The notes below the pieces were generated by a model. The model had not been told where the DNA came from. It did not search any database and saw only the letters and a list, made by a program, of their open reading frames with translations. A program made the position numbers and the translations under genes. This document shows positions 20,641 through 35,755 of a DNA stretch of 64,000 nucleotides, in pieces. The stretch comes from Sphingobium scionense (lineage in GTDB: Bacteria; Pseudomonadota; Alphaproteobacteria; Sphingomonadales; Sphingomonadaceae), in assembly GCF_014197035.1 (NCBI RefSeq), contig NZ_JACIEU010000001.1, positions 1-64,000 of the forward strand. The letters are read 5' to 3'. Within the stretch, counting starts at the first letter, position 1. The number at the start of each line of letters is the position of its first letter.

Positions 20641-20740
20641 AGCAAATTCCGATCCGACTGCGTCAGATCGGTTGTTCTAAGTTTTTGGTTTAACGCGTTT
20701 TCCGAGTCATCAGGTGATTCCACCTGATTAGAAAACGCTC
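20638..20740. repeat. Interspersed palindromic repeat, copy 1
   Basis: About 103 bp beginning in the stop codon of the FAD gene and ending at the stop codon of the convergent kinase gene. The 3' half (CAGGTGATTCCACCTGA nested within GTTTTC...GAAAAC) is nearly identical to that of the copy at 59547-59652. In this position it can act as a bidirectional terminator. Confidence 0.85.
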
Positions 20741-22071
20741 TAAACCGGCAGCTCGACCTGCGCGCGCAGCCCGCCATCAGGGGCACGTGCCAAAATCACC
20801 CGCCCCTGATGCGCCTGCGCCGCCGACTGGACGATCGACAGGCCGAGGCCGACGCCACCGGTGCTGCGGTTGCGGGAGGGTTCGCCGCGATAGAAGGGCT
20901 CGAAGGCGCGGGCGATATCGGCCTGTTCCATGCCCGGTCCGTCATCCTCGATCGTGACGATCGCCCTGCCCTCGTCGCGCATCACCCGCACCCGCGCGCG
21001 GTCGCCATATTTGATCGCATTGTCGATCAGGTTGGTGAACAGCCGCTTGAGCAGGATCATGTCGCCCGCGATGATGACCGGCTCCGCGCCCGTCAGGGTC
21101 ACGTCGCGGCCCATATCGGCAAAATCATCGACCAGCCCCTCGACCAGCAGTCCAAGGTCGAGCGGTTCCTTGAGCCGGGGGCGGTTTTCATTGTCGACGA
21201 AATCGAGGGTGGTGCCGATCAGCGCCTCCATCTGGCGGATTTCCTCTTCGGCCGCGATCCGCACCGGCGCGGGCGCGGCGGTGAGGTGGAAATGGAGGCG
21301 CGACAGCGGCGTGCGCAGATCATGCGCGATCGCGCCGACGACCGACGTGCGTTCGCGCACATAGCGGGCGATGCGCGCCTGCATCTCGTTGATCGACTGC
21401 GCCGCCAGCCGGATCTCGCTCGGCCCGTCGAGCGGGATCGGCTGTTCCTCCCGCCCTGCCCCCATCCGCTCGGCCGAGGCGGCGAAGGCACGGATTGGCC
21501 GCGTCAGCCGCGCACTGAACCAGAGGCTGAGCGGCACCACCAGCAGGATGCCGACCAGGAAGGCATATTGGCCGAGCAGCCGCCAGAGCGACCGCCCACC
21601 CCGCGCCTCCCGCGTGATCATCCGCCACTCACCGTCGGACTGGCGGATCGCGGCGGTGAAGGTGCCCAGGATGAAGGGATCGGCGACGCCATCGGGGCCA
21701 TAGAGCTGCATTTCCTCGACGAACTGGCCGATCCGCTCGCGATCGCCGGGGTCGAGGCGGATGCGGACATCGGCCGCGAGCAGGCTGAGGCGCCGGGCCA
21801 GCAGCGCGGCGATCAGCCGTTCGGCCGGGTCGGTCGACGCCGGCGGCGCGGCCGTCTGCCGCACCTCATGCACCACCGGCTCGTCGCGCAACAGGGGCTG
21901 GCCATGGACGATGCGGGCAATCTCATAGACCGACAGCGGCACCCGTTCGGGCGGGATGAAATAGAGCAGCAAAGTGAGGCTGAAGGCGGTCAGCGTCAGG
22001 ATTACGACCAGGGCGAGCGCCAGCAGATGGGCGTGGATCGAATTGGCCCAGCGCAGGAAGCCCGCCTTCAT
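20740..22071 (-). CDS. EnvZ/OmpR-type sensor histidine kinase
   Basis: 443 residues from ATG 22071, which overlaps the regulator stop as ATGA. Membrane helices at about 12-38 and 165-188 enclose a periplasmic domain of about 125 residues. HAMP follows (about 188-240), then HisKA with His250 in GAIAHDLRTPLSRL, and HATPase (NLIDNAIKYGD, EDDGPGM, GGVGLGLSIV). It forms a pair with the upstream OmpR-type regulator. The divergent position next to the HiPIP/DUF1592 operon suggests that operon as the target. Confidence 0.93.
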   Translation of the reverse strand: MKAGFLRWANSIHAHLLALALVVILTLTAFSLTLLLYFIPPERVPLSVYEIARIVHGQPLLRDEPVVHEVRQTAAPPASTDPAERLIAALLARRLSLLAADVRIRLDPGDRERIGQFVEEMQLYGPDGVADPFILGTFTAAIRQSDGEWRMITREARGGRSLWRLLGQYAFLVGILLVVPLSLWFSARLTRPIRAFAASAERMGAGREEQPIPLDGPSEIRLAAQSINEMQARIARYVRERTSVVGAIAHDLRTPLSRLHFHLTAAPAPVRIAAEEEIRQMEALIGTTLDFVDNENRPRLKEPLDLGLLVEGLVDDFADMGRDVTLTGAEPVIIAGDMILLKRLFTNLIDNAIKYGDRARVRVMRDEGRAIVTIEDDGPGMEQADIARAFEPFYRGEPSRNRSTGGVGLGLSIVQSAAQAHQGRVILARAPDGGLRAQVELPV

Positions 22072-22829
22072 CCGCGCTGCACCGGCGCCTGGAAGATATA
22101 GCCTTCGGATCGGACGGTGTGGATCAGTTCGCCACGCGCGCGGGTGCCGAGCTTGCGACGCAAGCGGCTGACCTGGGTGTCGATCGCCCGGTCGAACACA
22201 TCGGCATCCTCGCCCCGCGCCAGTTCGACCAGCGCGTCGCGGTTCAATATCTGCTGGGGATGCTCGATGAAGGCGAGCAGCAGGGCGAACTCGCCCTCTG
22301 ACAGGCTGATGATGATGCCGGCGGGATCGCGTAGCACCCGACGCACCGGATCGAGCTGCCACCCTTCGAAATGATAATGGGCCAGCACCGGCTGGCGGGT
22401 GTCGGCGACCGGACGGCGGCGGCGCTGCAACGCACGGATGCGGGCGAGCAGTTCGCGCGGCGACAGCGGCTTTGGCAGATAGTCGTCGGCGCCCATTTCC
22501 AGGCCGGTGATCCGGTCCCCCTCCGTCCCCAGCGCCGACACCATGATGATGCCGGCATCCTGCTGTCCCGCGAGCGAGCGGGCGATCGACAGCCCGTCCT
22601 CGCCCGGCATCATCACGTCGAGGACAATGATGTCGACCGGCTGATGGGCGAGGATGGCGCGCATCGCCGGGCCATCCGCCGCTTCGCTGACGACATAGCC
22701 TTCCTGCATCAGGAAGGCGCGGACCAGCGCGCGCAGCGACGGATCGTCATCGACGATCAGGATATGCGTGTCGCCCGGCGCGCTGTCGCCTGTCAGCTTC
22801 GCTGTCACCCTCACCTCTCCTCTTCCCAT
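22068..22829 (-). CDS. OmpR-family response regulator
   Basis: 253 residues from ATG 22829 (AGGAG 4 bases upstream); the open frame extends to 23042, but that part enters the divergent promoter. The receiver has HILIVDDDPSLRALV, phosphoacceptor Asp in IIVLDVMMPGEDG and Lys in DDYLPKPLSPREL; the C-terminal winged helix ends with RLRRKLGTRARGELIHTVR and GYIF. It probably binds the two palindromes at 22863-22932, which would make the system self-controlled. Confidence 0.93.
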   Translation of the reverse strand: MGRGEVRVTAKLTGDSAPGDTHILIVDDDPSLRALVRAFLMQEGYVVSEAADGPAMRAILAHQPVDIIVLDVMMPGEDGLSIARSLAGQQDAGIIMVSALGTEGDRITGLEMGADDYLPKPLSPRELLARIRALQRRRRPVADTRQPVLAHYHFEGWQLDPVRRVLRDPAGIIISLSEGEFALLLAFIEHPQQILNRDALVELARGEDADVFDRAIDTQVSRLRRKLGTRARGELIHTVRSEGYIFQAPVQRG

Positions 22830-22862
22830 TCCGCTCCTTCTAGCCGCCGGCCCGCGCCGGAT

Positions 22863-22883
22863 TTTGTCAGGCCCGACACAAAG
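22863..22883. promoter_or_regulatory. Palindromic site 1 in the regulator/HiPIP intergenic region
   Basis: TTTGTC (22863-22868) faces GACACAAA (22875-22882) across six bases; the right arm has one inserted base. Its centre is about 53 bp, or five helical turns, from site 2. The same arms TTTGTC/GACAAA recur in both sites. Confidence 0.55.
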
Positions 22884-22914
22884 GGCGGAATAAGCGCCTG
22901 CATTCTGCGCCGAT

Positions 22915-22932
22915 TTTGTCGGCGCTGACAAA
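22915..22932. promoter_or_regulatory. Palindromic site 2 in the regulator/HiPIP intergenic region
   Basis: TTTGTCGGCGCTGACAAA is a perfect 6-bp inverted repeat with a 6-base spacer. It lies 80 bases before the HiPIP start and 85 bases before the regulator start. Confidence 0.6.
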
Positions 22933-23012
22933 TTAATCCGGCGCCCCCCTGTTAGAAGGATCGCACAAGAGGACCGGAACAACCGGGCCGGCAGGGAAGA
23001 GGAGTGGGCCGC

Positions 23013-23321
23013 ATGGCGGCAAGCGATATTCATGGCCGTCACTGGAGCCGGCGATCGGCATTGGGCCTGATCGCCTGTGTGCCGCTGGGGATTGCGAGCA
23101 TCGCCCAGGCGGCCGAGTGCGTCGATCCGGCCAGCCTGTCGGCCGCGCAGAAGAGCATGCGCAAGTCGCTGGGCTTTCGCACCTCGAATGATGTGACCAA
23201 GCGCTGTGGCTTGTGCGCCTTCTTCACCGCCGCCCAGCCGGGTTGCGGCAAATGCGCGCTGCTGAGCGGCGGCATCGTGCCGACCGAGGGCGTGTGCGAC
23301 AGCTGGGCGAAGAAGAGCTGA
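23013..23321 (+). CDS. High-potential iron-sulfur protein (HiPIP)
   Basis: 102 residues from ATG 23013 (GGAG with 8-base spacer); a GTG at 23004 overlaps the ribosome site. A Tat-type leader (SRRSALGL, then AQA near residue 33) fits export of a folded iron-sulfur protein. The mature part has Cys65, Cys68, Cys81 and Cys95 in the C-x2-C...C...G-x-C-x2-W order of HiPIPs that bind one 4Fe-4S cluster; Cys78 is extra. It would be a soluble periplasmic electron carrier. First gene of a seven-gene operon; the next gene overlaps by 1 bp. Confidence 0.87.
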   Translation: MAASDIHGRHWSRRSALGLIACVPLGIASIAQAAECVDPASLSAAQKSMRKSLGFRTSNDVTKRCGLCAFFTAAQPGCGKCALLSGGIVPTEGVCDSWAKKS

Positions 23322-23977
23322 TGGCGAACCCCGCGCGCCAATATGTCTGGGATCTGCCGATCCGCCTGTTCCACTGGGCGCTGGTCGGCCTGATCGGCTT
23401 TTCCTGGTGGAGCGCGGAAACCTATCACATGGACTGGCATCGCCTGTCGGGTCAGGCGCTACTGTTCCTGATCGTCTTTCGCCTGATCTGGGGCCTGATC
23501 GGGTCCGGGCCGGCGCGTTTTACCCAGTTCCTGCGCGGGCCGCGCGCGATCTTCGCCTATCTGACCGGCCGTGCTCCGGCTGCGCCGGGCCATAATCCGC
23601 TGGGCGGCTGGAGCGTGATGGCGATGCTGCTGGCGCTGTCGGTCCAGGTCGGCACCGGCCTGTTCGCGGTCGATATCGACGGCATCGAATCCGGGCCGCT
23701 GTCGCATCTGGTCGATTTCGACCAGGGGCGTTTGGCCTCCGACATTCACGGCATCAGCTTCACCATCCTGCAAATCCTGATCGGCCTGCATGTTCTGGCG
23801 GTGCTGTTCTACCTGCTGGTGCGGCGGCGCAACCTGATCGGGCCGATGGTCAGCGGCCGGGCGAAAGTGACCGGCGAACCGGTGGCGGTGCGGCGTGCTT
23901 CGCCTGTCGCCTTCGCTGTCGCGACCCTGCTGGCGGGCACCCTCGCCTGGTGGGTCTTTGCCGATCCGACGCTGTGA
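23321..23977 (+). CDS. Cytochrome b561-type membrane protein
   Basis: 218 residues. It begins VWDLPIRLFHWALVGLIGFSWW (quoted in part as WDLPIRLFHWALVGLIG), the signature of bacterial b561/NiFe-type b cytochromes with His in the first helix. Four or five hydrophobic helices follow, with further His candidates in AETYHMDWHRLSGQ, SDIHGISF and LIGLHVL. It would carry electrons between the quinone pool and periplasmic carriers. The start overlaps the HiPIP stop, pointing to tight co-expression. Confidence 0.9.
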   Translation: MANPARQYVWDLPIRLFHWALVGLIGFSWWSAETYHMDWHRLSGQALLFLIVFRLIWGLIGSGPARFTQFLRGPRAIFAYLTGRAPAAPGHNPLGGWSVMAMLLALSVQVGTGLFAVDIDGIESGPLSHLVDFDQGRLASDIHGISFTILQILIGLHVLAVLFYLLVRRRNLIGPMVSGRAKVTGEPVAVRRASPVAFAVATLLAGTLAWWVFADPTL

Positions 23978-23997
23978 CTGACATGAAAGGGACGAGG

Positions 23998-24468
23998 ATG
24001 AGGATGCACGATACAGCGCAGATGAAGCGGCCGGCCGCCATGCTGGCGCTGCTCTGCGCGGTACCGCTGGCGGCGGCGCCCGGCGATATCGTCGCCACCC
24101 GGATCGCGGGTTTTCGCGAGGTCGGCGCGGCGTTCAAGAATATCAATGACGAGCTGAAATCGGCCACGCCGCAAACCTATGTAATCCAGATTTCGGCGCG
24201 CCAGATTCGCGACTATGCCCGCCAGCAGCAGGGTTGGTTCCCGGCCGGCAGCGGCCCCAAGCCCGGCGTCAAGACGGCGGCCAAGCCGGAAATCTGGAGC
24301 CAGCCGGCCGCATTCAAGGCGGCGCAGGACGGCTTCACCGCGCAGGCCAACAGCTTCGCCACCGTCGCGGCGAGCGGCGACGTCGCGAAGATGCGCGCGG
24401 CGGCCAAGACGCTGGGGCAAAGCTGTGGCACCTGCCACCGCAGCTTCCGTGTCGAGGAGAAGCGCTGA
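23998..24468 (+). CDS. Cytochrome c' family protein
   Basis: 156 residues from ATG 23998 (AAAGGG upstream); ATG 23983 and 24004 are alternatives. A signal peptide ends near AAA-PGD. The four-helix-bundle class is suggested by the C-terminal haem motif CGTCHRSFR, FREVGAAFKNINDEL near the start and WSQPAAFKAAQDGF in the middle. The expected partner of cytochrome b561 in this family setting. Role: periplasmic electron carrier or gas-binding haem protein. Confidence 0.88.
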   Translation: MRMHDTAQMKRPAAMLALLCAVPLAAAPGDIVATRIAGFREVGAAFKNINDELKSATPQTYVIQISARQIRDYARQQQGWFPAGSGPKPGVKTAAKPEIWSQPAAFKAAQDGFTAQANSFATVAASGDVAKMRAAAKTLGQSCGTCHRSFRVEEKR

Positions 24469-25259
24469 TGTGGCGCCGGGCGGCCGCGATCCTGTGGCTG
24501 GCGCAGCCGGCCGCGCTCTGGGCGCAGGCCGCCGACCTGCCGCCCGAGGCGGCAAGTGGCGAGCCGCTGCCGGCCGGTGTCAGCATCCGCAAGGTCGGTG
24601 ACCAAAGCGTCTATGTCGATGCCCATGGCCGCACCCTCTATGGCATGGACATGCGCGCGGTGACCGGGCGGACCGGGCATCAGCCGCTCTGGTGTTCGGG
24701 CGATTGCCTGACCCAATGGACGCCGCTGGCCGCACCCGCCAAGGCGGAGGTCGTCTCCGCGCCGCCCGAGTTCGGCGGCGATCGCAAGGCACCCCGGCTG
24801 AAGCAGGACGGCGCCGACTGGATCGTGATGCAGGGACCGAGCGGGCCGCAATGGGTCTATAAGCGGGTCAATCTGGTCTTCACCCATGCCGGCGAGCGGC
24901 CGGGCACGATCGGGCATGAGGGCGAGGACGGGCTGGTCTGGAACAGCCTGAAATATGTGCCGGCCGCGCCCAAGATCGACGCGCCAGCCGATGTGACCGC
25001 GCGGCTGGTGGACGGGCGCTATCTGCTGGTCGATGGTCAGGGCAATTTGCTGGTGACGCATAAGGGCAAGGCCTGTGGCACGGCCTGCGCCGACTGGCGC
25101 GTCTTCCCGGCGGGCATGGCGCGACGGGGCATGGGCGCCTGGACCGTGCGGCCCGATGGCGACCGCGCCCAATGGGCCTATCGCGACCGGCCGGTCTTCA
25201 CCATCGAGGGCGACGACCCGGCGGACATTCCCGCCGAGGCCGAACCGCTGATCCCATGA
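24468..25259 (+). CDS. Exported PF03640 (COG4315) repeat protein
   Basis: 263 residues with a signal peptide (cleavage near WAQA). Two copies of the secreted-repeat type are visible: VYVDAHGRTLYGMDMR with CSGDCLTQWTPL, and YLLVDGQGNLLVTHKGK with CGTACADWRVFP. Each copy has a Cys-x3-Cys pair. Function is unknown in the family; no lipobox was seen here. It overlaps the cytochrome c' stop (TGATG). Confidence 0.82.
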   Translation: MWRRAAAILWLAQPAALWAQAADLPPEAASGEPLPAGVSIRKVGDQSVYVDAHGRTLYGMDMRAVTGRTGHQPLWCSGDCLTQWTPLAAPAKAEVVSAPPEFGGDRKAPRLKQDGADWIVMQGPSGPQWVYKRVNLVFTHAGERPGTIGHEGEDGLVWNSLKYVPAAPKIDAPADVTARLVDGRYLLVDGQGNLLVTHKGKACGTACADWRVFPAGMARRGMGAWTVRPDGDRAQWAYRDRPVFTIEGDDPADIPAEAEPLIP

Positions 25260-25276
25260 TATTTCGCAAGGAGAGG

Positions 25277-26461
25277 ATGATCGTGCAGAATCATCGCAAA
25301 CTGATCCTGCTGCTGGGCGCGCTGCCCCTAACGACCTCTGTGTTGGCGCAGGGCGATGCGCCCCCCAAACCGACCGCACCCGCAGCACTGCCCGCGCCAC
25401 CGGCCAATGGCGAGATGGGTTTCGTCGTCAGCCATTTCGCCCCCGCCATCTATCAGGGCAAGGAGGACTGTCCGCAGGGCCTGGCCGCCACGCTGCGCGA
25501 AAATTATCTCCAGACCCAGCCGGTTGGCGAGCGGACGCGGCTGCTGGAAAAGGCGAACGAGAAGGAACTGACCGCGCGCTGGACCGGCTATGCCTTCGGT
25601 CCCGACAATATCAACATCTGCACCCATCCCGACAAGTTCGACCGGCCGCCGCAGCGCATGGTGCAGGGCAAGGTCGCGCAGGGGCTGAACCTGGACGATG
25701 ATGAGGGTGGCGCGGCGGCGGGCGACACCTGCGGCCATGCCAATTTCACCGGCCCGGCGGGTGAGCCGGGTGTCGACAACCAGATGTGGCGGGCGATGGG
25801 CTGCGTGCGGACCTGGCGCGGGGTCGACGGCACGGGCGGCGATATCGTCAAGGGCCTGACCCAGTTTCTGGTGAGCGGCGAACATAGCCAGGTGCTGCTG
25901 CTCAGCGGCGTTGATAGCCTTGAGAATGATCCCGACGTGACGGTGATCTACGCCAATAGCGAAGATCGGGCGGTGGTGGATTCGCGCCAGAATTTCATTC
26001 CCGGCGCCAGCTACAGCGTTACCGCCAATGGCGCCCATCGCAATGTGCTGAAAGGGCGGATCGTCAACGGCGTGCTGACCACCGAGCCGGCCCATATCCG
26101 CCTGAAGCAGAATTGGGGCCAGGGGTCGGAGCGCGACATTCGTGGCCGGCGCAACGAATATGATTTCACCAGGGCGCGGTTGCGCTTCACCTTCCAGCCG
26201 GACGGATCGATCAAGGGCATTGTCGGCGGCTATCAGCCGATCTGGAACGTGATGGCCAGCGCCTCAGTCGGTGGCGAGGGCGCGGCGACCACGGCCGGCT
26301 ATGACTGCGCCGCCATGTATGCGGCGCTCAAGGCGATGGCCGATGGCGATCGTGATCCGGCGACCGGCCAGTGCCGCCGCATTTCCAGCGGCATGGAGGC
26401 CTGGGCCGTGCCCGCCTTCATCACCGACCGCCTGCCCCAGCCCAAGGTGGCGCAGCGATGA
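25277..26461 (+). CDS. Unrecognised exported Cys-rich protein
   Basis: 394 residues from ATG 25277 (AGGAG 3 bases upstream); ATG 25256 overlaps the previous stop as ATGA and would add seven residues. Signal peptide ends near VLAQ. I do not recognise the family. At least six cysteines occur in EDCPQG, NICTHP, DTCGHA, MGCVRT, YDCAAM and GQCRRI, which suggests disulfides or metal/haem ligation; there is no CxxCH. The order of a soluble globular domain with N-terminal Pro-rich linker (residues 22-45) fits a periplasmic enzyme. It overlaps the DUF1592 gene by 4 bp. Confidence 0.8.
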   Translation: MIVQNHRKLILLLGALPLTTSVLAQGDAPPKPTAPAALPAPPANGEMGFVVSHFAPAIYQGKEDCPQGLAATLRENYLQTQPVGERTRLLEKANEKELTARWTGYAFGPDNINICTHPDKFDRPPQRMVQGKVAQGLNLDDDEGGAAAGDTCGHANFTGPAGEPGVDNQMWRAMGCVRTWRGVDGTGGDIVKGLTQFLVSGEHSQVLLLSGVDSLENDPDVTVIYANSEDRAVVDSRQNFIPGASYSVTANGAHRNVLKGRIVNGVLTTEPAHIRLKQNWGQGSERDIRGRRNEYDFTRARLRFTFQPDGSIKGIVGGYQPIWNVMASASVGGEGAATTAGYDCAAMYAALKAMADGDRDPATGQCRRISSGMEAWAVPAFITDRLPQPKVAQR

Positions 26462-28176
26462 GCGGGCCGTTTTGTCACAGGGCGCGCTGGGCGCTGCTCG
26501 CCGGGTTGCTGCTGAGCGCCTGCACGGTCGAGAAGGCGCCGCAGACCGCTGCCACGCCCGACGCCAGCTTCGCGCCCTTGAAGACGCCACTGGGCCAGGT
26601 GGCAGGGATGCGCCGCCTGACCGAAGCGCAATATCGCAACAGCATCGCCGACATCTTCGGCCCCGACATCAAAGTCGCGGGCCGGTTCGAGCCGATCGTG
26701 CGGCCGGTGCATGAGCTGATCGCCACCGGCGCCAGCGCATCGACCATCTCGCCCGCCGGGCTGGAACAGTTCGACGCGATGGCGCGCAACATCGCCGCGC
26801 AGGTCTTCGCGCCGGATCGCCGCGCCCAGTTCATGCCCTGCGCCCCGCGCGACGCGGCCGCGCCCGATGCCGATTGCGCCGCGCGGACGCTGATGCCGAT
26901 CGGTCGCTACCTGTTCCGCCGGCCGATGACGCAGGAGGAGATTGGCGCCTTCGTCATGATGGCGGGCAAGGGCGCTGGCGATGGCCAGGGTTTCTATGAC
27001 GGCATGCAGCTGGCGATGGCGGCGATGCTAGTGTCGCCGCAGTTCCTCTACATCATCGAGAGCGCGGAGCCCGACCCGGCAGCGCCCGGCAGCCTGCGGC
27101 TCGACAACCATGCCCGCGCCGCGCGGCTGAGCTATCTGCTGTGGAACACGACGCCCAATGAGGCGCTGCTGCGCGCGGCCGACGAGGGCAAGCTGACCGA
27201 TCCGGCGCAACTCGCGGCGATCGCGCAGAAGATGGTGCGTTCGCCCCGGCTGGAGGATGGCGTGCGCGCCTTCTTCGCCGACATGCTGTTGTTCGAGAAG
27301 TTCGACGAAATGGCCAAAGACCAGATCGTCTATCCCCGCTTCAACCCCGATGTCGCGTCGGCCCTGTCCGAACAGATGCTGCGCATGATTGTCGACCAGC
27401 TGGTGACGCGGCAGGGCGATTATCGCGACCTGTTCACCACCCGGCGGACCTTCATCAACCGGGCGCTGGGGCCGCTCTATCAGGCCAAGGTGTCCAGCAT
27501 GCAGGGCTGGGTGCCCTATGAGTTCGGCGAAGGCGACGATCGCGCCGGGCTGCTGGGCCAGGCCGGTTTCCTGGCGCTCTATTCCCATTCGGGCCGCAGT
27601 TCGCCGACCCTGCGCGGCCGGGCGATCCGCGAACTGCTGCTGTGCCAGCCGGTGCCCAATCCGCCGGGCAACGTCAATTTCACCGCCGTGCAGGATGTCG
27701 GCAACAAGGCGATGCCGACCGCGCGCATTCGCCTGAACGCCCATAACAGCGATCCGGTCTGTGCCGCCTGCCACAAGATCACCGATCCGCTGGGCCTGCC
27801 GCTGGAGCGGTTCGATGGCATCGGCGCCTTCCGCCGGACCGAAAATGCCGCGCCGATCGACACCGCCGGCGTGTTCGAGGGCACCGCTTTCCAGGGCAAT
27901 GTCGGCCTGGGCCAGGCCCTGGCGGCAAGCAAGTCGACCACCGAATGCGTCGCCGGCCGCGCCTTCCAATATGCGACCGGCCGCATGCCGGAGGATGAGG
28001 AGGCGACCGCCATGGCGCTGGAACAGGGCTTCGCCGCTGACGGCTATCGCATCCAGGCACTGTTCCTGCGCGTCGCGACCATGGCCGATGCCTATCGCGT
28101 CAGCACCCCGCCGTTGGCCAAGCCGCAGGTCGCGATGATGACCAGCCCGCATATCCGTGAAGGAGACCGTCCATGA
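26458..28176 (+). CDS. DUF1592/DUF1588-type cytochrome lipoprotein
   Basis: 572 residues. A lipobox LLLSAC gives a Cys near residue 22. Domains in the planctomycete-type order are seen: DUF1587-like (MRRLTEAQYRNSIADIFG), DUF1595-like (RYLFRRPMTQEEIGAF), DUF1592 (RLSYLLWNTTPNEALLRAA), DUF1588 with a CAACHKITDPLGLPLE haem motif, and DUF1585-like end. Such proteins are known mainly from planctomycetes and some proteobacteria, without a defined reaction. It is coupled by ATGA overlaps to both neighbours; the DUF1552 partner follows. Confidence 0.87.
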   Translation: MSGPFCHRARWALLAGLLLSACTVEKAPQTAATPDASFAPLKTPLGQVAGMRRLTEAQYRNSIADIFGPDIKVAGRFEPIVRPVHELIATGASASTISPAGLEQFDAMARNIAAQVFAPDRRAQFMPCAPRDAAAPDADCAARTLMPIGRYLFRRPMTQEEIGAFVMMAGKGAGDGQGFYDGMQLAMAAMLVSPQFLYIIESAEPDPAAPGSLRLDNHARAARLSYLLWNTTPNEALLRAADEGKLTDPAQLAAIAQKMVRSPRLEDGVRAFFADMLLFEKFDEMAKDQIVYPRFNPDVASALSEQMLRMIVDQLVTRQGDYRDLFTTRRTFINRALGPLYQAKVSSMQGWVPYEFGEGDDRAGLLGQAGFLALYSHSGRSSPTLRGRAIRELLLCQPVPNPPGNVNFTAVQDVGNKAMPTARIRLNAHNSDPVCAACHKITDPLGLPLERFDGIGAFRRTENAAPIDTAGVFEGTAFQGNVGLGQALAASKSTTECVAGRAFQYATGRMPEDEEATAMALEQGFAADGYRIQALFLRVATMADAYRVSTPPLAKPQVAMMTSPHIREGDRP

Positions 28177-29513
28177 GCTTCACCCTCGATCGCCGCACCG
28201 CGCTGCGCGGCATGGTCAACGGCATGGCCGTGGCCGTCGGCCTGCCGCTGCTCGACATCTTCCTCGACGGCAACGGCACCGCCATGGCGGCGACCGGCGC
28301 GCCGATGCCGATCCGTTTCGGCACCTGGTTCTGGGGGCTGGGCGTCAATCCGCCGCGCTGGTTCCCCAGCGCCGCCGGCAAGGATTATGAGCTGAAGGTC
28401 GAGCTGGCCTCGATCGAGGCGCTCAAGCACAAGGTCAACATCCTGGGCGATTTCACCCTGCCGCTCGACGGCAAGCCCAACCTGCCGCACATCAGCGGCG
28501 GCATCGGCATCCGCACCGGCATGGCGATCGATTCCGACCGCGGCCTGCCGGGGCCGTCCTTCGACGTGTCGATCGGCGACGTGATCGGCACCCGCACCCG
28601 ATTCCGGTCGATCGAGCTGTCGGCGACCGGCGATCCGCGCAATTCGCTGTCCGGGCGCGGCAATGGCAATCTCAACCCGGCGGAAGTGTCGCCCGCCGCC
28701 CTTTATACAAGGCTGTTCGGCGCAGGCTTCCATGATCCCAACAGCGCAACCTTCACCCCCGATCCGGCGGTGATGGCGCGGCGCAGTGTCCTGTCCGGCG
28801 TGTCCGAGCAGCGCCAGGCGCTGGAGGCGCGGCTAGGCGCGGCCGACAGGCAGCGGCTCGACCAATATTTCACGTCGCTGCGGCAGCTCGAAAACCAGCT
28901 CGACGTGCAGCTGACCAAGCCGGCGCCGATGCAGGCCTGTGTCGTGCCACCCAAGGTGCCCGACCTGCCGGTCAATGCCGAGATCGAGAATGTCATGCGC
29001 AATCACGAGATCATGACAGATCTGCTGGTGATGGCGATGGCGTGCGACAATGTCCGGCTGTTCAACATGAACTTCAACAATGGCGCATCGTCGCTGACGC
29101 GGGTGGGCAGCACCATCACCCATCATCAGCTGACCCATGAGGAGGTGCTGGACAACCGGTTGGGCTATCAGCCCGAAGTCACCTTCTATGTCGACAAGTG
29201 CATGGAAGCCTGGACCTATTTCATCAAGGCGATGGACGCGGTGAAGGAAGGCGACCGCACCCTGCTGGATAACAGCCTGGTCTTTGCCCATAGCGAGACC
29301 GAGTTCGCCAAATTCCACACCATCGACAATATCCCGATGATGACGGCGGGATCAGCCGGCGGGCGCATCCATACCGGCCAATATATCACCGGCGACGGAT
29401 CGCCGGTCAGCCGGGTGGGCCTCACCCTGCAACAGGCGATGGGCGTGCCGGTCGACCGTTGGGGCACGGGCAGTCTGGAGACGAACAAGATCATCCCCGG
29501 ACTGATCGTCTGA
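28173..29513 (+). CDS. DUF1552 family exported protein
   Basis: 446 residues with a Tat-like leader (LDRRTALRGM, hydrophobic stretch, AMAATG). The DUF1552 pattern is visible in LGVNPPRWFPSA, LSGRGNGNLNPAEVSP and ITHHQLTHE, with FNMNFNNGASS and FAHSETEFAKFH further on. The fold resembles the sulfatase/DUF1501 type, but no catalytic residue can be assigned. It is the last gene of the operon and converges on the beta-helix gene with a 4-bp gap. DUF1592-DUF1552 pairs recur in other genomes. Confidence 0.87.
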   Translation: MSFTLDRRTALRGMVNGMAVAVGLPLLDIFLDGNGTAMAATGAPMPIRFGTWFWGLGVNPPRWFPSAAGKDYELKVELASIEALKHKVNILGDFTLPLDGKPNLPHISGGIGIRTGMAIDSDRGLPGPSFDVSIGDVIGTRTRFRSIELSATGDPRNSLSGRGNGNLNPAEVSPAALYTRLFGAGFHDPNSATFTPDPAVMARRSVLSGVSEQRQALEARLGAADRQRLDQYFTSLRQLENQLDVQLTKPAPMQACVVPPKVPDLPVNAEIENVMRNHEIMTDLLVMAMACDNVRLFNMNFNNGASSLTRVGSTITHHQLTHEEVLDNRLGYQPEVTFYVDKCMEAWTYFIKAMDAVKEGDRTLLDNSLVFAHSETEFAKFHTIDNIPMMTAGSAGGRIHTGQYITGDGSPVSRVGLTLQQAMGVPVDRWGTGSLETNKIIPGLIV

Positions 29514-29517
29514 TCCC

Positions 29518-32500
29518 CTATTCCATCCGCGCCGCGTAGAGGCCGTGATGCGACAGCATGAACAGGGTCTTGCCGTCCGAACCGCCGAACAGCAGTTGTA
29601 GCGGCCGTTCGGGCACGTCGATCCGGCCGATCGGCTTGCCGTCGGGCGCGTAGACGAAGACCTGGCCATTAGCGACATAGACCCGGCCCTGCGCGTCGCT
29701 GACCACGCCCTCCCCGCCGCGATCGGCGAAGGGCGTGAGGTCGGTCAGCGTGCCGTTGCCGGCGACCAGCGCGCTGTAGGTGCGGTTTTCCGATCCGTTG
29801 GTGACATAGATGCGCTGGCCCGGCTTGCCCTGAACGAAGCCATAGCTGTCGAGCGTGTGGGAGAAGCGCAGGCCGCGATGGTCGACCGGTCCCTGGGCGA
29901 AGACGCGCCAGGCCGGCAGGGCGATGCTGCCGTCGGGCGAGACATAGGCCTGCGCATTGGACTGTGCGGTGTCGTGGGCGAACATGTCGGCGAGCGTGGT
30001 GAACTGATAGGTCTTGGGATCAATCTGGTCCCTGAACTCGCCATTCACCCACCAGTTGACCGGGAAGATCGTGGCCGCGCTGCCCTGCCCGGCGGGCGTC
30101 GCCGGGATGACGCTGATCTGCGTGTCCGGCGCGCCGGGGGTGACGCTGTAGACGGTGCCGTTGCGGCCATAGGAGGAAAGGACCAGCAGATTGCCCGACT
30201 TGTCGATGGTCAGGTTCACCGGATCGAGCGCGGCGTCGCGGATCATCTCCAGCCGGCCCGCGTCGGACCAGCGCCAGATGCGCTGGAAGAAGCGGTCGAT
30301 GAAATAGAGCCGCCCCTGCGCATCGATTGCGCCGCCGCCTAATCCATAGAAACCGTCAGCGAGTTTCTCCACGCTGGCGCCGCCGAAGGTCGAGGGCGAG
30401 ACCGGATCGGGCTTCGCCGGCACGTCCAGCACGGCGAACTCGCGCTCGCGCACTTCAAGGCCGTGGGTGATGTCCTGAATCGCGTTTTCGAACGGATATT
30501 TGGTGAGGCGCAGGAAGGTGCCGCAGCCATTTTCGTCGCAGGTGCCGACCCCGCTTTCGGCGTTCACATGGACGTTGCGAAAGCGGATGTCGTGCGAATT
30601 ATAGAGCGACACCGCGGTCGGCGCAGGCTTGCGCGTGCGGGTGACGCGATAGCCGTGGAAATTGGCGACCAGGATGTTGCGGGAATCGCGGATTTCGAGC
30701 GCGACGGCATCGCCGCTCTCGCCCGCCTCGCCTTCGGTCTGGGGCGCCAGCAATTCCCAGTTGGCGACGCGGTTGAGGCCGATTTCGGTGCGGACATGAT
30801 GTTCGACCGAGGCCTGGATCAAGCGGCCCGGTGTTTCCGTGTCGGAAATCAATATGCCCGGATGACCGAAGGTGCTGGGGCTCCAGATATTGGCGAAGGT
30901 GCCCCCGCCGCCCTGCGTCACCCAGAGGCTGGCATATTGGCCGCCCCAGCGGCGCGATGCGTCGGGATCGGCGGTGGCGTTGTTGTTATAGGGATTGCGC
31001 CGGCTGCCATCGAAGGCATCGGTGCCATGGCCGCCCTGGAACTTGACGTCGTTGACCATGGAACTGGCGCCGGCCTTCCACAACAGGCCGGTCGCGCGCG
31101 GATTGGCGCCATTGGTGTCGAGCGCCAGGCCGGCGACGATCGCGTCGCCGCCCTGCGCGCTTTCCACCAGCGCCTTGGGCGCGCCGACGCCCTGGAAAGC
31201 GGGCGTGCCGTCGGGCAGGACGATCTGGGTCAGGCTGGGGTGGAGACCGAGCAGCACCGTGTCGGCGCGCAGCCGCAACGTGTCGCTGACCTTGTAGAAG
31301 CCGGCAGGGAGGTAGACGACGCGATGGCTGTCGATCGCCTTCTGCAGCACGGCGGTGTCGTCCGTACTGTTATCGCCCTTCGCCCCCAGCGCGCGGACAT
31401 TCACCCATTCGGAGACGGGCGGCAGCGGACGGATCGCAGGCGCACCGGGCGCCGGCAGGCTGGCGATCGGCTGCGCCTGCATGTCTGTTTTATACTCGCC
31501 GATCCGGCCAAGCCCCGGCAGGGTCAGGCCATGGGTGAAGGAGGAAACCTTGTAAGCCTTCCCCTGCCCCGCCACGGTGCGGCCGCTCTCGCGGAAGCGA
31601 GCAAAGGTCGGCGTGTTGGCGGCCAGCACATTCTGGAAGCCGACCTGGGTATAGACATTCTTCTCATTGGAGATGATGACGCCGGCCTTCGACACATTTT
31701 CGAAGCGGACATCCTGGCCCCAGAGCCAGTCGCCATAGCCCCGGTCGATCTCGATCCCGACCGGCACGTTGCGGAAGGCGACATTGAGCAGGGTCAGGCC
31801 CGCTTCATGCTCGCGGATGGCGGCGTCGCGCTGTCCTTCGAACGTTGCATCGACCAGGGCGAAGGGCCAGGCCGGCGAGGTCTTTTCCGCGAGGATGCCA
31901 TAGCGGCCGCCCTTGAAGTGCAGATCCTCCGCCTCGTTGGCGACATGATAGAGGCCGGCGAGCCCCGACCCGATGTCGAAATCGACATGGCTGACGAAGC
32001 TGTGCTGGGCGGAATGGAAGCGGATCGCGGTCGCCGCCGGATTGCTGTCCATGATGCGGAAATCGATATTGCCGAGCGCGGAATAGAAGGTGCCCGGATT
32101 GGCGTCGGCGATGGTCTTGTCGAACGGCACGCTGCCGGCCGGGGGGAAGGCGGCGGGCCAGCTTTCCTTGTCGGTCTGACGCTTGCCGCCGGTGAAGATC
32201 AGCATATGGGCGACGCCGCGCTGAAAGCCCGGCGTGTTGGCGCCGAGCAGGATCGTCGGACGCTGGGCGCCGATGCCGAAGATGCGCACGCCCGGCCACA
32301 GAAAGAGCGTGCGGCTGATGCGATAGGTGCCCTGGGGCAGGAAGACGATGCCGCCGCCGGGTGTCGCGGCGGCGGTGTCGAGCGCCTGCTGGATCGCGGC
32401 GCTGTCATCGGCGCGGCCATCGCCCACGCCCTTCACCGTCACGGCGCGCGCATCGTCGGGCATGGCGGTATAGACGGACGGGGACGCGAAAGCCGGCCGC

Positions 32501-32571
32501 GCCGCCGCCAGACATAGCAACACCGACGCACAGGCCCCACTCAATCCACGATAGGTCAGGCCACGATACAT
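29518..32571 (-). CDS. GH55-like double beta-helix protein with C-terminal beta-propeller (paralogue 1)
   Basis: 1017 residues from ATG 32571 (signal peptide to AFAS). Two pectate_lyase_3-type beta-helix modules (about 40-370 and 400-660) have the repeated GDGRADDSAAIQQALD / GDNSTDDTAVLQKAID openings and FLPQGTYRISRTL / YLPAGFYKVSDTL strands. This layout is that of GH55 exo-beta-1,3-glucanases. An SMP-30/NHL-like propeller follows (about 710-1017: GGGAIDAQGRLYFID). Paralogue of the gene at 35756. It lies downstream of a TonB receptor on the same strand. Glycan specificity is not proven. Confidence 0.75.
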   Translation of the reverse strand: MYRGLTYRGLSGACASVLLCLAAARPAFASPSVYTAMPDDARAVTVKGVGDGRADDSAAIQQALDTAAATPGGGIVFLPQGTYRISRTLFLWPGVRIFGIGAQRPTILLGANTPGFQRGVAHMLIFTGGKRQTDKESWPAAFPPAGSVPFDKTIADANPGTFYSALGNIDFRIMDSNPAATAIRFHSAQHSFVSHVDFDIGSGLAGLYHVANEAEDLHFKGGRYGILAEKTSPAWPFALVDATFEGQRDAAIREHEAGLTLLNVAFRNVPVGIEIDRGYGDWLWGQDVRFENVSKAGVIISNEKNVYTQVGFQNVLAANTPTFARFRESGRTVAGQGKAYKVSSFTHGLTLPGLGRIGEYKTDMQAQPIASLPAPGAPAIRPLPPVSEWVNVRALGAKGDNSTDDTAVLQKAIDSHRVVYLPAGFYKVSDTLRLRADTVLLGLHPSLTQIVLPDGTPAFQGVGAPKALVESAQGGDAIVAGLALDTNGANPRATGLLWKAGASSMVNDVKFQGGHGTDAFDGSRRNPYNNNATADPDASRRWGGQYASLWVTQGGGGTFANIWSPSTFGHPGILISDTETPGRLIQASVEHHVRTEIGLNRVANWELLAPQTEGEAGESGDAVALEIRDSRNILVANFHGYRVTRTRKPAPTAVSLYNSHDIRFRNVHVNAESGVGTCDENGCGTFLRLTKYPFENAIQDITHGLEVREREFAVLDVPAKPDPVSPSTFGGASVEKLADGFYGLGGGAIDAQGRLYFIDRFFQRIWRWSDAGRLEMIRDAALDPVNLTIDKSGNLLVLSSYGRNGTVYSVTPGAPDTQISVIPATPAGQGSAATIFPVNWWVNGEFRDQIDPKTYQFTTLADMFAHDTAQSNAQAYVSPDGSIALPAWRVFAQGPVDHRGLRFSHTLDSYGFVQGKPGQRIYVTNGSENRTYSALVAGNGTLTDLTPFADRGGEGVVSDAQGRVYVANGQVFVYAPDGKPIGRIDVPERPLQLLFGGSDGKTLFMLSHHGLYAARME

Positions 32572-32595
32572 CAGGCAGGCTCCGTAAAAAGAAGA

Positions 32596-32621
32596 TGTCC
32601 CGGCCGTGCAGGACCGGGACA
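32596..32621 (-). terminator. Hairpin after the TonB receptor
   Basis: TGTCCCGG (32596-32603) pairs with CCGGGACA (32614-32621), 10-base loop, between the receptor stop and the beta-helix start. An A/T-rich stretch follows in the minus-strand direction (tttttacgg), consistent with partial termination. Confidence 0.6.
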
Positions 32622-32649
32622 AGTTTGGGGGGAGAGATGTTATGTTTTA

Positions 32650-35619
32650 TCAGAAATTGAAGCGGACACCGGCGCGGTAGATGCGGCCCAGCGTGTCGTA
32701 GAGCGCCGGGTTGATATCCAGACCGGTGTTGGTCTGGGGCGAGGCGACCGGATCCTTGTCGAACAGATTGTCGACCTTGCCATAGAGGGAGACACGGTCG
32801 CTGAATTTGAAGGTGGCGCCGATGTCGACATAGAAGGCCCCCTTCATCTTGTTATAGTCGATGGTCGGATGGTTCGCGGTCGAGGTCGGGCAGGACGACT
32901 GGCAGACGACATATTGATTGCCGAAGGTGCCGTCGCTGATCCAGCGTTCCTGCACCGTCAGGCTGAACTTGCCGCTGTCATAGGTTTGTACCGCCAGCCA
33001 TTTCCAGTCAGGGGTGTTGCCGTTGTTGGCGCCGGCCTGATCGACCGCATCGACACCGGCAATGCCGGCATTGACGATGAACTTGCGGATATGGGTGCCC
33101 AGCGCGCGGACGGTGAAGTTGCCCGGCAGGCCCAAGGGCTGCTGCCACTGATAGCTGGCCTCGATATCGAAGCCGCTGGTCCGCCAGGAGGCGAGATTGA
33201 ACGGCTGGACATTGATATAGTTGAGGCTGGGATTGGCATTGTCGAGGCTGAAGCCGCCGCAGAAGGCCTGATTGCCGTCATAGCAGAACTGGACGATCTG
33301 CTGCGCCGACAGGCTGGAGACGACGCCCTTCAGCTTGATGTCATAATAGTCGAACGACAGGCTGAGGCCAGGCAGCCAGGAGGGACGCGCCAGCACGATG
33401 CCGATTTCGGTGTTGCGGGCGATTTCCGGCTTCAGGTTCGGATTGCCGATGGTGTTCTGGAACGCCTGAACCGCTGCGCCCTGGAAGGGGTCGCTGAAGT
33501 TCGGCAGGGTCGTGACGGTCGGCGCGGCGAACAGTTCCGACAGGTTGGGCGCACGCACGTCGCGCGAGGTGACGGCGCGCAGGCGGATGCCGTCGAGCGG
33601 CGTGTCCCAGGTGCCGCCGACCTTCCACGCCCAGACCGTGCCCGACGTGCTGTAATGGGTGCCACGGCCCGCGGCGTTCAGGTTGGCGCGGCCGACCGCC
33701 TCGCTGTCGAACAGCGGCATGTCGATTTCCGCGAAGCCTTCATAGACTTCATATTTGCCGCGACCATTTTTGTAGTTGCCGGCCGCCCAGTTGCTGCCCT
33801 GTGCGCCATTGAGCAGCGGGTCGGCCGGATAATCGGCGCTGTTCGGGCTGATGTCGGACACGCCCGCGCCATAGGGATCGGCATTCACGCGGTAGAATTC
33901 GCGGCGATATTCGGCACCGAAGGCGACCGACAGCGGTCCTGCCCACAATTCCACCGGATTGCCCGAGAAGTTGAGGCTGGCGACGTCCTGGGTCAGCTTG
34001 GTGTGCTGGAACGGACCATTGTCATGCGGCGCAAGATAGGCGAGCGCGGCCGCCGAGGGGGTGAAGCCACCGAAGATGTTGATCGGCTGGCAACCCAGCA
34101 CGCGGGCGGCCGGATCGGCGCAGACGATCGCGCCGTTGAGGGTGATCGCATTGGCCGCCGCTGCATAGCGGTTCTGCAGCACGATATCCTTCACCTGGAT
34201 GTCCGAGATGGTGATGCCATGCTCATAATAGGTGTCATAGTTCCAGTCGGTGCCGGCGAGATCGAACTTGCCCTTGGCACCGGCGACGAAGCGATATTGC
34301 TTGCGGTCGGTATAAACCTGCGGATCGGGGAAGGCGGCGTTGGACGAGCCGAAGCCGAAGGAAGTGATGCCGGCGGTGGCGCAACGGTCGCGCACCAGCT
34401 GCGGCAGATAGGGGTTGGAGCATTGGACGGTCAGGCTGGCGCGGCCATAACCGGGGCTGGGCTGGTTGTTGGTCTTCACCTGCGCGACATTGACCGTGAC
34501 ATAGGCTTCGTTGTTATCGGCGAAATCATAGCCGATCCGGCCATAGCCGTTGATGCGTTCCAGCGAGGATTTGAGCGAAGCGCCCGAACCCGGCGCGCCC
34601 GACAGGTCGCCGCCTTCGCAGAAGCTGTTGCCGCGATAGCAGTTGGTGACCGCGCCGGTGCCGGTCGGCGTGCCGTTCGAGCCATAGTTGAACTGATAGG
34701 GATTGCCATTCTGGTCGAAGGCGATGCCCTGCAGCGGCCCGTTGTTGATCAGGCCATAGCGGGCATATTGATAGGGCTGGGCGTAATCGCGGTAATTATA
34801 TTGCGGCAGGCCGTTGTTGGTCTGGCCGGTGTTCATCAGCGTGGTCGCGCGATACCAGTTGCGGCTGCCGGCCAGATCGGTGCCGAAGTCGCCGGCGCCC
34901 ACGCCGCCTTCATGGTCATATTCGCCGCTGACGACGACATGCAGGCGATCGTCCATGAAGGACTTGCCATAGGCGGCCTGGACCAGCGCGGTTTCATCAT
35001 CGCCATATTTGGTAATGCTGCCCAGGATATTGCCCTTGAAGCCTTCGAAATGGGTGTCGGTGATGAAGTTGACCACGCCGCCGACCGCGTCAGAGCCGTA
35101 GGAGGCCGACGCGCCGCCGGTGACGACGTCGACGCGCTTCACCAGCAGCTGCGGAAACATCGAGATGTCGGGCACGCCGGTGACGTTGGCGCCAACAACG
35201 CGCTGGCCGTCGAGCAGGGTCAGGGTACGGATCGCGCCCAGGCCGCGCAGCGAGAAGGAGCTGAGGCCCTGCTGGCCGCTGGAGGTGGAGAAGGTGCCGG
35301 TGGCGGCGCCGGTCGAACCCTGGAGCGAGGGCAGCTGGGCGATCGTGTTGAAGATGTTGGGCTGGGCGTTGTTGGCGATCTGCTCCTCACCGATGACGGT
35401 GGTGGGCGTCGGCGCATTGAAGCCGCTGGTGGTGATGCGCGATCCGGTGACGATGATGTCGGCGCTCTGTGCGGCCGGAGCATCGCTCGTCCGGGCCTGC
35501 GGCGCGGGTTCGGCCGCCGGTTCGGTCTGGGCCTGGGCGGTGCCGGCCAGCGCCATGATGGCGACCGCGGCCAGACTGACGCCCGCCATATGCCGATGGA
35601 TTGCGATCTGCACGTTCAT
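32650..35619 (-). CDS. TonB-dependent receptor (Region 3)
   Basis: 989 residues from ATG 35619, with GAAGAGGA upstream; the longer frame has no leader. Signal peptide to AQAQ, a Pro/Ala linker, then DIIVTGSRITTSGFNAPTP and a plug domain (SSFSLRGLGAIRTLTLLDGQR, VDVVTGGASASYGSDAVGG), and a barrel ending AGVRFNF. It imports an unknown ligand across the outer membrane; the flanking GH55-like proteins suggest a glycan or oligosaccharide. The motif at 35718-35733 is upstream. Confidence 0.92.
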   Translation of the reverse strand: MNVQIAIHRHMAGVSLAAVAIMALAGTAQAQTEPAAEPAPQARTSDAPAAQSADIIVTGSRITTSGFNAPTPTTVIGEEQIANNAQPNIFNTIAQLPSLQGSTGAATGTFSTSSGQQGLSSFSLRGLGAIRTLTLLDGQRVVGANVTGVPDISMFPQLLVKRVDVVTGGASASYGSDAVGGVVNFITDTHFEGFKGNILGSITKYGDDETALVQAAYGKSFMDDRLHVVVSGEYDHEGGVGAGDFGTDLAGSRNWYRATTLMNTGQTNNGLPQYNYRDYAQPYQYARYGLINNGPLQGIAFDQNGNPYQFNYGSNGTPTGTGAVTNCYRGNSFCEGGDLSGAPGSGASLKSSLERINGYGRIGYDFADNNEAYVTVNVAQVKTNNQPSPGYGRASLTVQCSNPYLPQLVRDRCATAGITSFGFGSSNAAFPDPQVYTDRKQYRFVAGAKGKFDLAGTDWNYDTYYEHGITISDIQVKDIVLQNRYAAAANAITLNGAIVCADPAARVLGCQPINIFGGFTPSAAALAYLAPHDNGPFQHTKLTQDVASLNFSGNPVELWAGPLSVAFGAEYRREFYRVNADPYGAGVSDISPNSADYPADPLLNGAQGSNWAAGNYKNGRGKYEVYEGFAEIDMPLFDSEAVGRANLNAAGRGTHYSTSGTVWAWKVGGTWDTPLDGIRLRAVTSRDVRAPNLSELFAAPTVTTLPNFSDPFQGAAVQAFQNTIGNPNLKPEIARNTEIGIVLARPSWLPGLSLSFDYYDIKLKGVVSSLSAQQIVQFCYDGNQAFCGGFSLDNANPSLNYINVQPFNLASWRTSGFDIEASYQWQQPLGLPGNFTVRALGTHIRKFIVNAGIAGVDAVDQAGANNGNTPDWKWLAVQTYDSGKFSLTVQERWISDGTFGNQYVVCQSSCPTSTANHPTIDYNKMKGAFYVDIGATFKFSDRVSLYGKVDNLFDKDPVASPQTNTGLDINPALYDTLGRIYRAGVRFNF

Positions 35620-35717
35620 TCCTCTTCCCCTCTTGTCACCAAGCGCCCTCCCGGCGTCGGCGTCGCCCATGGCGGGCTATTGTGTGAGCCTTAGTCCCTG
35701 CCCCGTCCGGTCGCACT

Positions 35718-35733
35718 TACGACATAGGTCGTA
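35718..35733. promoter_or_regulatory. TACGAC-N4-GTCGTA palindrome upstream of the TonB receptor
   Basis: TACGACATAGGTCGTA, preceded by GCACT, lies about 99 bases before the receptor start. Nearly the same string with the same flank occurs at 38845-38860 before the second beta-helix gene. Confidence 0.65.
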
Positions 35734-35755
35734 GATGCGCCGGAACGGCGGATTT

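Follow-up and report, generated by a model that had tools for sequence, protein, structure and literature searches.

Among the closest described relatives of the system analyzed here are the DUF1592-type (PSCyt3/PSD) genes of planctomycetes and verrucomicrobia. DUF1592/DUF1552-type genes are reported to be frequent in some Verrucomicrobia, and in verrucomicrobial genome bins the PSCyt3 genes usually adjoin a family of unknown function, with the functions of both unreported in the available part of that source (PMC5615132); this neighbor is assumed here to be DUF1552. Another point of reference is Cbp2D of Cellvibrio japonicus, a multidomain protein that combines DUF1587 and c-type heme domains with carbohydrate-binding and YceI-like domains; one of its heme domains reduces copper oxygenases, and no DUF1552 partner is described for it in the portion of the report that was available (PMC8981238). 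As an exported unit built of two such proteins, the best analogue known is the DUF1800-DUF1501 pair, in which a Tat-like exported protein is likewise encoded beside a helical partner. The locus considered here lies in a 64-kb stretch of the genome of the soil bacterium Sphingobium scionense (contig NZ_JACIEU010000001.1, positions 1-64,000; hereafter, the window), where DUF1592 and DUF1552 genes close a seven-gene operon that also codes for a high-potential iron-sulfur protein (HiPIP), a cytochrome b561, a cytochrome c′, a PF03640-like protein, and a Cys-rich protein.

The window DUF1592 protein carries the same five PSD/PSCyt3 domains as the planctomycete and verrucomicrobial proteins, but its unit adds the Cys-rich beta-barrel protein, the PF03640-like protein, HiPIP, c′, b561, a two-component system, and a distant hydroxylase-VOC operon. 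The DUF1592-DUF1552 pair is already known; what is new is the dedicated electron chain, the partners, and the regulon. The explanation we favor, tentatively and somewhat short of an even chance, is an envelope system that oxidizes hydrophobic polycyclic isoprenoids and passes the electrons out via the DUF1592 heme, c′, HiPIP, and b561. The features of the locus are as follows.

20740-22071, minus strand: sensor histidine kinase, EnvZ-like (HATPase_c, 88.2 bits; HAMP, 48.9; HisKA, 23.3, below the cut-off of 26.9)
22068-22826, minus strand: OmpR-type response regulator, start codon uncertain (Response_reg, 101.9 bits; Trans_reg_C, 71.1)
22840-22879, minus strand: predicted promoter/operator of the two-component genes, with the palindrome TGTC-N6-GACA (22862-22878); matches the promoter pattern with 1 mismatch
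22916-22955, plus strand: predicted promoter/operator of the operon, TGTC-N6-GACA (palindrome 22914-22930) followed by TGNTAR; 0 mismatches, kept in homologous regions
23013-23321, plus strand: HiPIP with a Tat-like leader and six conserved Cys (PF01355, 25.5 bits; cut-off, 22)
23321-23977, plus strand: cytochrome b561, membrane protein (PF01292, Ni_hydr_CYTB, 77.1 bits)
23983-24468, plus strand: cytochrome c′ with CxxCH and a Sec-like leader (PF01322, Cytochrom_C_2, 90.5 bits)
24468-25259, plus strand: PF03640-like secreted protein (12.5 bits, below the cut-off)
25256-26461, plus strand: Cys-rich secreted protein without a Pfam or NCBIfam match, beta-barrel in the structural model (predicted local distance difference test [pLDDT], 90.6)
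26458-28176, plus strand: DUF1592 lipoprotein with a CxxCH heme motif (PSD3-PSD5-PSD4-PSCyt3-PSD2, all above the cut-off)
28173-29513, plus strand: DUF1552 (HXXSHH) protein with a Tat-like leader (168.4 bits; cut-off, 30), alkaline-phosphatase-superfamily fold in the model

All seven plus-strand genes were confirmed at 23013-29513, and they are packed as tightly as the preliminary description of this DNA had stated: HiPIP/b561 and c′/PF03640 overlap by 1 nt, PF03640/Cys-rich, Cys-rich/DUF1592, and DUF1592/DUF1552 by 4 nt each, and a single 5-nt gap separates b561 from c′. An alternative start of the Cys-rich gene at 25277, behind a AGGAGAGG stretch spotted by eye, would turn the PF03640/Cys-rich junction into a 17-nt gap, and HiPIP may begin at a GTG codon at 23004. 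Export leaders, assigned by visual inspection instead of a signal-peptide program, are present in six of the seven proteins, one more than originally counted. Two are Tat-like (HiPIP and DUF1552) and one has a lipobox (DUF1592), the numbers first given for these types; those of c′, the PF03640-like protein, and the Cys-rich protein are Sec-like, and the seventh protein, b561, resides in the membrane. Six Cys residues are conserved in all 25 aligned HiPIP rows, compared with the four Cys of the cluster, so the extra two perhaps form an additional disulfide. The b561 protein retains five His residues in 18 of 18 aligned rows and c′ its C-terminal CxxCH in 25 of 25. The PF03640 score of the window protein (12.5 bits against a cut-off of 24.4) compares with 187 to 204 bits in three cassette homologs that have five repeats.

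The order of the seven genes and the adjacent two-component genes is unchanged across 11 genomes of Sphingobium and Sphingomonas: that of the window, three near relatives (90 to 100% protein identity), four other members of the genus (approximately 49 to 91%), and three further loci (L044, L045, and L046). A survey of the genus, covering 94 genomes, detected DUF1592 in 31 and the Cys-rich family in 21. HiPIP yielded 15 matches in 14 genomes, none farther than 3.4 kb from a DUF1592 match, and full-length c′ yielded 35 matches in 26 genomes, all within 8.9 kb of DUF1592 (a count that excludes seven partial matches above the cut-off and weaker partial ones); neither was detected in any of the 63 genomes without DUF1592. 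The chance of a single match lying that near DUF1592 is approximately 0.6%, and the Fisher test P values are 1.5e-8 for HiPIP and 1.6e-18 for c′, with no correction for relatedness. At the level of sequence searches, HiPIP and full-length c′ occur in this genus only at DUF1592 loci. The search for conserved co-occurrence that the preliminary description had proposed has thus upheld its claim of one unit with its own electron carriers, and gene order together with the genus-wide counts establishes the seven genes as a conserved unit. Nothing was found in favor of a chance grouping of unrelated redox genes, and the conserved order, the exclusive co-occurrence, and the operator described below leave it practically no probability. 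One DUF1592 gene of the survey (G090:C2:997438-998924) is apparently broken: it consists of two pieces and contains a single in-frame stop.

The OmpR/EnvZ-type two-component pair, with receiver and winged-helix domains in one protein and HAMP and kinase domains in the other, is encoded upstream of the operon and divergently from it, and in one neighborhood comparison it was kept beside the operon in seven operon-bearing relatives. The intergenic region contains two palindromes, TTTTGTCAGGCCCGACA (22862-22878) and TTTTGTCGGCGCTGACA (22914-22930). The pattern TTTTGTCNGNNCNGACA, allowing up to 2 mismatches, has 5 matches in the window against 0.67 expected, four of which are the two palindromes, each on both strands. 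Every one of 12 homologous regions, taken from 10 genomes, contains TGTC-N6-GACA. A second copy of the same 19-nt stretch is located elsewhere in the S. scionense genome, 58 bp upstream of a distant operon that encodes, in this order, a PF04116 hydroxylase with His boxes visible by eye, a secreted VOC protein, a short-chain dehydrogenase/reductase (SDR), a PF04075 oxidoreductase, EthD, and SnoaL. PF04116 is the superfamily of sterol desaturases. The promoter pattern KTGTC-N6-GACAAA-N17-TGNTAR, searched with one mismatch allowed, gave 27 matches in 12 of 14 genomes and none in the reversed-pattern control; all 27 fall at just three promoters, those of the operon (12), the two-component genes (6), and the hydroxylase gene (9). 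The hydroxylase loci of three genomes (G007, G009, and G082) were found through the pattern and were not among the loci read earlier, and a VOC gene lies 3′ of the hydroxylase in 7 of the 9 pattern-matched loci. Independent support comes from a wider comparison of 99 loci: a similar VOC gene (E value of 1e-6 or better) is found in 18, immediately following DUF1552 in 12 cases (L029, L030, L034, L050, L051, L055 to L060, and L094), and L050 and L051 also carry a homolog of the hydroxylase (76% identity) inside the cassette locus. The two-component genes, the operon, and the distant hydroxylase(-VOC) operon have one promoter/operator in common, as read from these sequence patterns, and the response regulator would bind its palindrome. 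Since the operator is shared, the two-component system appears dedicated to the operon, in line with the preliminary description. The gene set given there holds as a seven-gene unit but is incomplete: the regulon adds the distant hydroxylase-VOC operon, and the core comprises three to four genes.

Two-component control with an autoregulated promoter and a membrane hydroxylase within the regulon would also suit an envelope-stress response, in which the system would repair or detoxify the damage done by nitric oxide or by lipophiles that act on membranes (saponins, quinones), with the hydroxylase remodeling the lipids of the membrane; members of the c′ family bind NO. Such a response seems unlikely, given that the second operon adds catabolic-looking SDR, PF04075, EthD, and SnoaL genes in the window's clade, that the sister cassettes sit among catabolic genes, and that the Cys-rich family has a patchy presence (21 of the 94 genomes) and is therefore unlike a general stress response.

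Beyond the conserved operon, the core cassette is Cys-rich beta-barrel-DUF1592-DUF1552, which recurs in other loci as judged by gene order. Among 79 named loci, which represent the best 80 of 269 confirmed candidates picked by DUF1592 similarity and include several from one genome as well as three genomes counted again (L042/G009, L043/G036, and L052/G019), DUF1552 is directly downstream of all 89 DUF1592 genes, and the Cys-rich gene is directly upstream of 79 of them, with 3 more cut by contig ends. These loci are labeled as sphingomonads, Caulobacteraceae, Rhodospirillales, Steroidobacter, and various metagenome bins. The profiles of the neighbor families were rebuilt twice; that of the PF03640-like protein, which drifted toward a longer five-repeat form, detects a gene in 65 of the 79 loci. 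HiPIP, c′, and b561 are encoded in 18, 20, and 15 of the 23 sphingomonad-labeled loci, respectively, compared with 6, 4, and 2 of the 56 others, so the carriers appear to be mainly a sphingomonad feature. Because the carrier genes lie upstream, downstream, or on the opposite strand of the cassette, depending on the locus, their association with it has probably formed more than once. Seven loci (L065, L069, L072, L095, L102, L113, and L119) carry two cassettes in tandem, which suggests expansion for different substrates. A second, diverged cluster with the order DUF1592 (810 amino acids)-DUF1552-ankyrin-c′-b561 was seen in L036, L037, and L038; the L036 copy has genes for adenosine deaminase and purine nucleoside permease in its vicinity and is possibly a nucleoside-linked paralog.

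In all 77 DUF1592 sequences compared, the CxxCH motif, His429 ahead of it, and four more Cys residues are invariant. No invariant Met or His follows the CxxCH in these sequences, and the heme may therefore be five-coordinate or bis-His. The C terminus of DUF1592 weakly resembles DUF1800 in a profile comparison (43% probability; E value of 2.5e-4 over 71 columns); a corresponding kinship of DUF1552 with DUF1501 was rejected as too weak (11%; E value of 0.0027 over 38 columns). S. scionense itself carries a DUF1800-DUF1501 pair (L129, contig C9, near position 77077), whose DUF1800 protein, unlike DUF1592, has no heme motif visible by eye. Sequence searches for solved relatives returned nothing useful for DUF1592, DUF1552, and the Cys-rich protein (single sequences and profiles) or for the hydroxylase (single sequence). 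The model of the Cys-rich protein is rich in strands, with a best Z score against the PDB of 6.8, which is in the range the tool gives for common arrangements; the weak matches are to barrels (avidins and one domain of quinohemoprotein amine dehydrogenase), and no family was assigned by fold.

The AlphaFold2 model of DUF1552, built from 82 sequences (mean pLDDT of 89.4; predicted template modeling [TM] score of 0.85), is predicted to have the alkaline-phosphatase-superfamily fold. Foldseek gave a best E value of 3.1e-6 at a TM score of 0.37 (range, 0.3 to 0.4) with a large root mean square deviation (rmsd), and VIA-align placed PafA first (Z score of 17.0; rmsd of 4.0 over 276 residues), followed by NPPs and sulfatases. 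Sequence identity to this superfamily is approximately 10%. All 82 DUF1552 sequences retain His106, His318, His322, His382, Arg143, Cys291, and an acidic residue (Glu/Asp) at position 375, and 80 of them have Ser or Thr at position 108; the CxPxR formylglycine motif that marks type I sulfatases is found in none of the 82. Typical motifs of the alkaline phosphatase superfamily are Asp-x3-His and an Asp after a core strand. From the order of secondary-structure elements, His318/His322 would map to the former and Glu/Asp375 to the latter, so that DUF1552 appears to have His where the superfamily has Asp. Since the predicted fold is that of the alkaline phosphatase superfamily and not an oxidoreductase fold, the name oxidoreductase is unproven for DUF1552, which weakens the earlier proposal of an exported oxidoreductase reaction carried out by this protein. 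A more far-reaching reading would make DUF1552 an alkaline-phosphatase-fold protein rebuilt as a redox enzyme, with His in place of acidic metal ligands to hold a redox metal; together with the heme lipoprotein DUF1592, it would then form an exported oxidoreductase of a new class that acts on polycyclic isoprenoids and has a dedicated c′/HiPIP/b561 chain and its own regulon, and the DUF1800-DUF1501 and planctomycete PSCyt pairs would be its distant cousins. As a whole, this reading has to be called improbable.

The direction of electron flow, which the preliminary description had drawn from the quinone pool toward the reaction, is not fixed by the data. Electrons running that way would pass from quinol through b561 and c′/HiPIP to the DUF1592 heme and on to a redox metal of DUF1552 that activates oxygen, making the pair an exported hydroxylase. 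The adjacency of b561 and c′ in the operon and in sister cassettes, the Cbp2D heme domain able to reduce a copper oxygenase (in the available part of PMC8981238), and the invariant His residues of DUF1552 all fit this scheme; however, b561 is not within reach in 8 of the 23 sphingomonad-labeled loci and 54 of the 56 others, and we regard it as doubtful.

As to the substrate, one line of context comes from plasmids. The Cys-rich protein matches 13 of 72,556 plasmid records, 12 from Sphingobium and 1 from Novosphingobium. The 12 Sphingobium plasmids belong to Sphingobium herbicidovorans (pMSHV) and to 11 "Tom" strains, and they coincide with the 12 in which HsaA is present at 96% identity or more, the HsaA query having been taken from one of them. 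Tomato-root Sphingobium isolates are reported to degrade alpha-tomatine, and S. herbicidovorans MH (NBRC16415) to degrade it to putative intermediates; the available text of that paper names no such cassette (PMC10653915). Sister cassettes on replicons with HsaA-like genes are the point in common with the steroid/saponin catabolism of alpha-tomatine-degrading Sphingobium. On pMSHV, a Rieske gene and genes best matched by the HsaC and HsaA models (269 and 398 bits, against a cut-off of 450 for each) are approximately 5 kb from the cassette, and a gene with a rhamnosidase domain lies on the other side. The pMSHV Cys-rich gene (L182, 11573-12918) is annotated as two overlapping pieces and may therefore be frameshifted. 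Elsewhere, a KshA_C protein (187.8 bits) is encoded directly behind DUF1552 in L089, and a GH106 rhamnosidase and a P450 are encoded near the cassette in L100.

Rhamnosidases near some cassettes, PQQ-dehydrogenase-like genes in 9 of the 79 named loci (checked with Pfam in two of them), and the carbohydrate-binding modules reported for some PSCyt genes in the available part of PMC5615132 could instead indicate an exported hydrolase and redox system for a carbohydrate or polymer, of the kind suggested for PSCyt proteins with such modules. This appears quite unlikely, as the hydroxylase and VOC partners do not point to sugars and the pectate-lyase-like/TonB genes of the window (29518-38779) do not accompany the operon in four relatives (G009, G036, G019, and G007), which led to their rejection as part of the system. 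The stretch runs on the minus strand, convergent on the operon, and consists of a pectate-lyase-like/SGL protein gene, a large gene (32650-35670) grouping with a TonB-type gene, and another pectate-lyase-like paralog (58% identity); the first of these genes is conserved at this place in three near relatives only (G016, G021, and G029).

The favored class of substrates is the polycyclic isoprenoids, such as steroids, sapogenins, and triterpenoid-like compounds, which we infer from context. In the oxidation scheme preferred here, the kinase would sense either a hydrophobic compound itself or what the compound does to the envelope, and the response regulator would then act at the shared operator. 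Binding or presenting the compound might be the task of the Cys-rich barrel protein and of the VOC protein. DUF1552, with a presumed metal center, and DUF1592, as a heme lipoprotein, would oxidize the compound as a pair, and the electrons would flow to c′ and HiPIP and from there to a terminal oxidase or, via b561, to the quinone pool. Both this direction of flow and the metal chemistry of DUF1552 are conjectural.

Several observations weigh against this scheme or limit it. The predicted fold of DUF1552 is that of hydrolases. HiPIP is missing from 17 of the 31 DUF1592 genomes and full-length c′ from 5 (G033, G073, G074, G076, and G105), and the seven partial c′ matches lie away from DUF1592, some of them in genomes that lack it. 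The PF03640-like gene was not within reach in 14 of the 79 named loci, and the Cys-rich family was found in only 2 of 398 genomes sampled across the phylum, that of S. scionense included. As for the regulon, the promoter pattern behind the 27 matches was drawn partly from sites that it later matched, a VOC gene was not detected after the hydroxylase gene of L154 and L163, and of six stretches read among those with weak operator matches (3 mismatches; L148 to L153), two precede the hydroxylase gene and four do not. The steroid link suffers in that the 12 Sphingobium plasmids are mutually related, that the cassette and HsaA are approximately 370 kb apart on pTomMM7Aa, that all 8 HsaA-bearing Novosphingobium plasmids lack the Cys-rich gene, and that the sole Novosphingobium plasmid with the Cys-rich gene is not among the 35 HsaA records. 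Queries with HsaA, HsaC, Rieske, and flavin monooxygenase sequences had no match in the window at an E value of 1e-3, and among the 79 named loci they detected a single Rieske gene (L089), a single flavin monooxygenase gene (L093), and no HsaA or HsaC. Finally, the plasmid cassettes are only 31 to 34% (Cys-rich protein) and approximately 51% (DUF1552) identical to those of the window, and their substrate may therefore differ.

No reaction has been assigned to DUF1592 or DUF1552 in the available portions of the literature searched (PMC8981238, PMC5615132, PMC7789669, and PMC2754498), which bears out the preliminary description on this point, and none of the papers searched was found to treat the two together. 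The locus provides a handle on a widespread uncharacterized pair through its regulon and promoter, the electron chain dedicated to it, the fold predicted for DUF1552, and a candidate substrate class, and there are named, cultured Sphingobium strains in which the function of DUF1592 and DUF1552 is testable.

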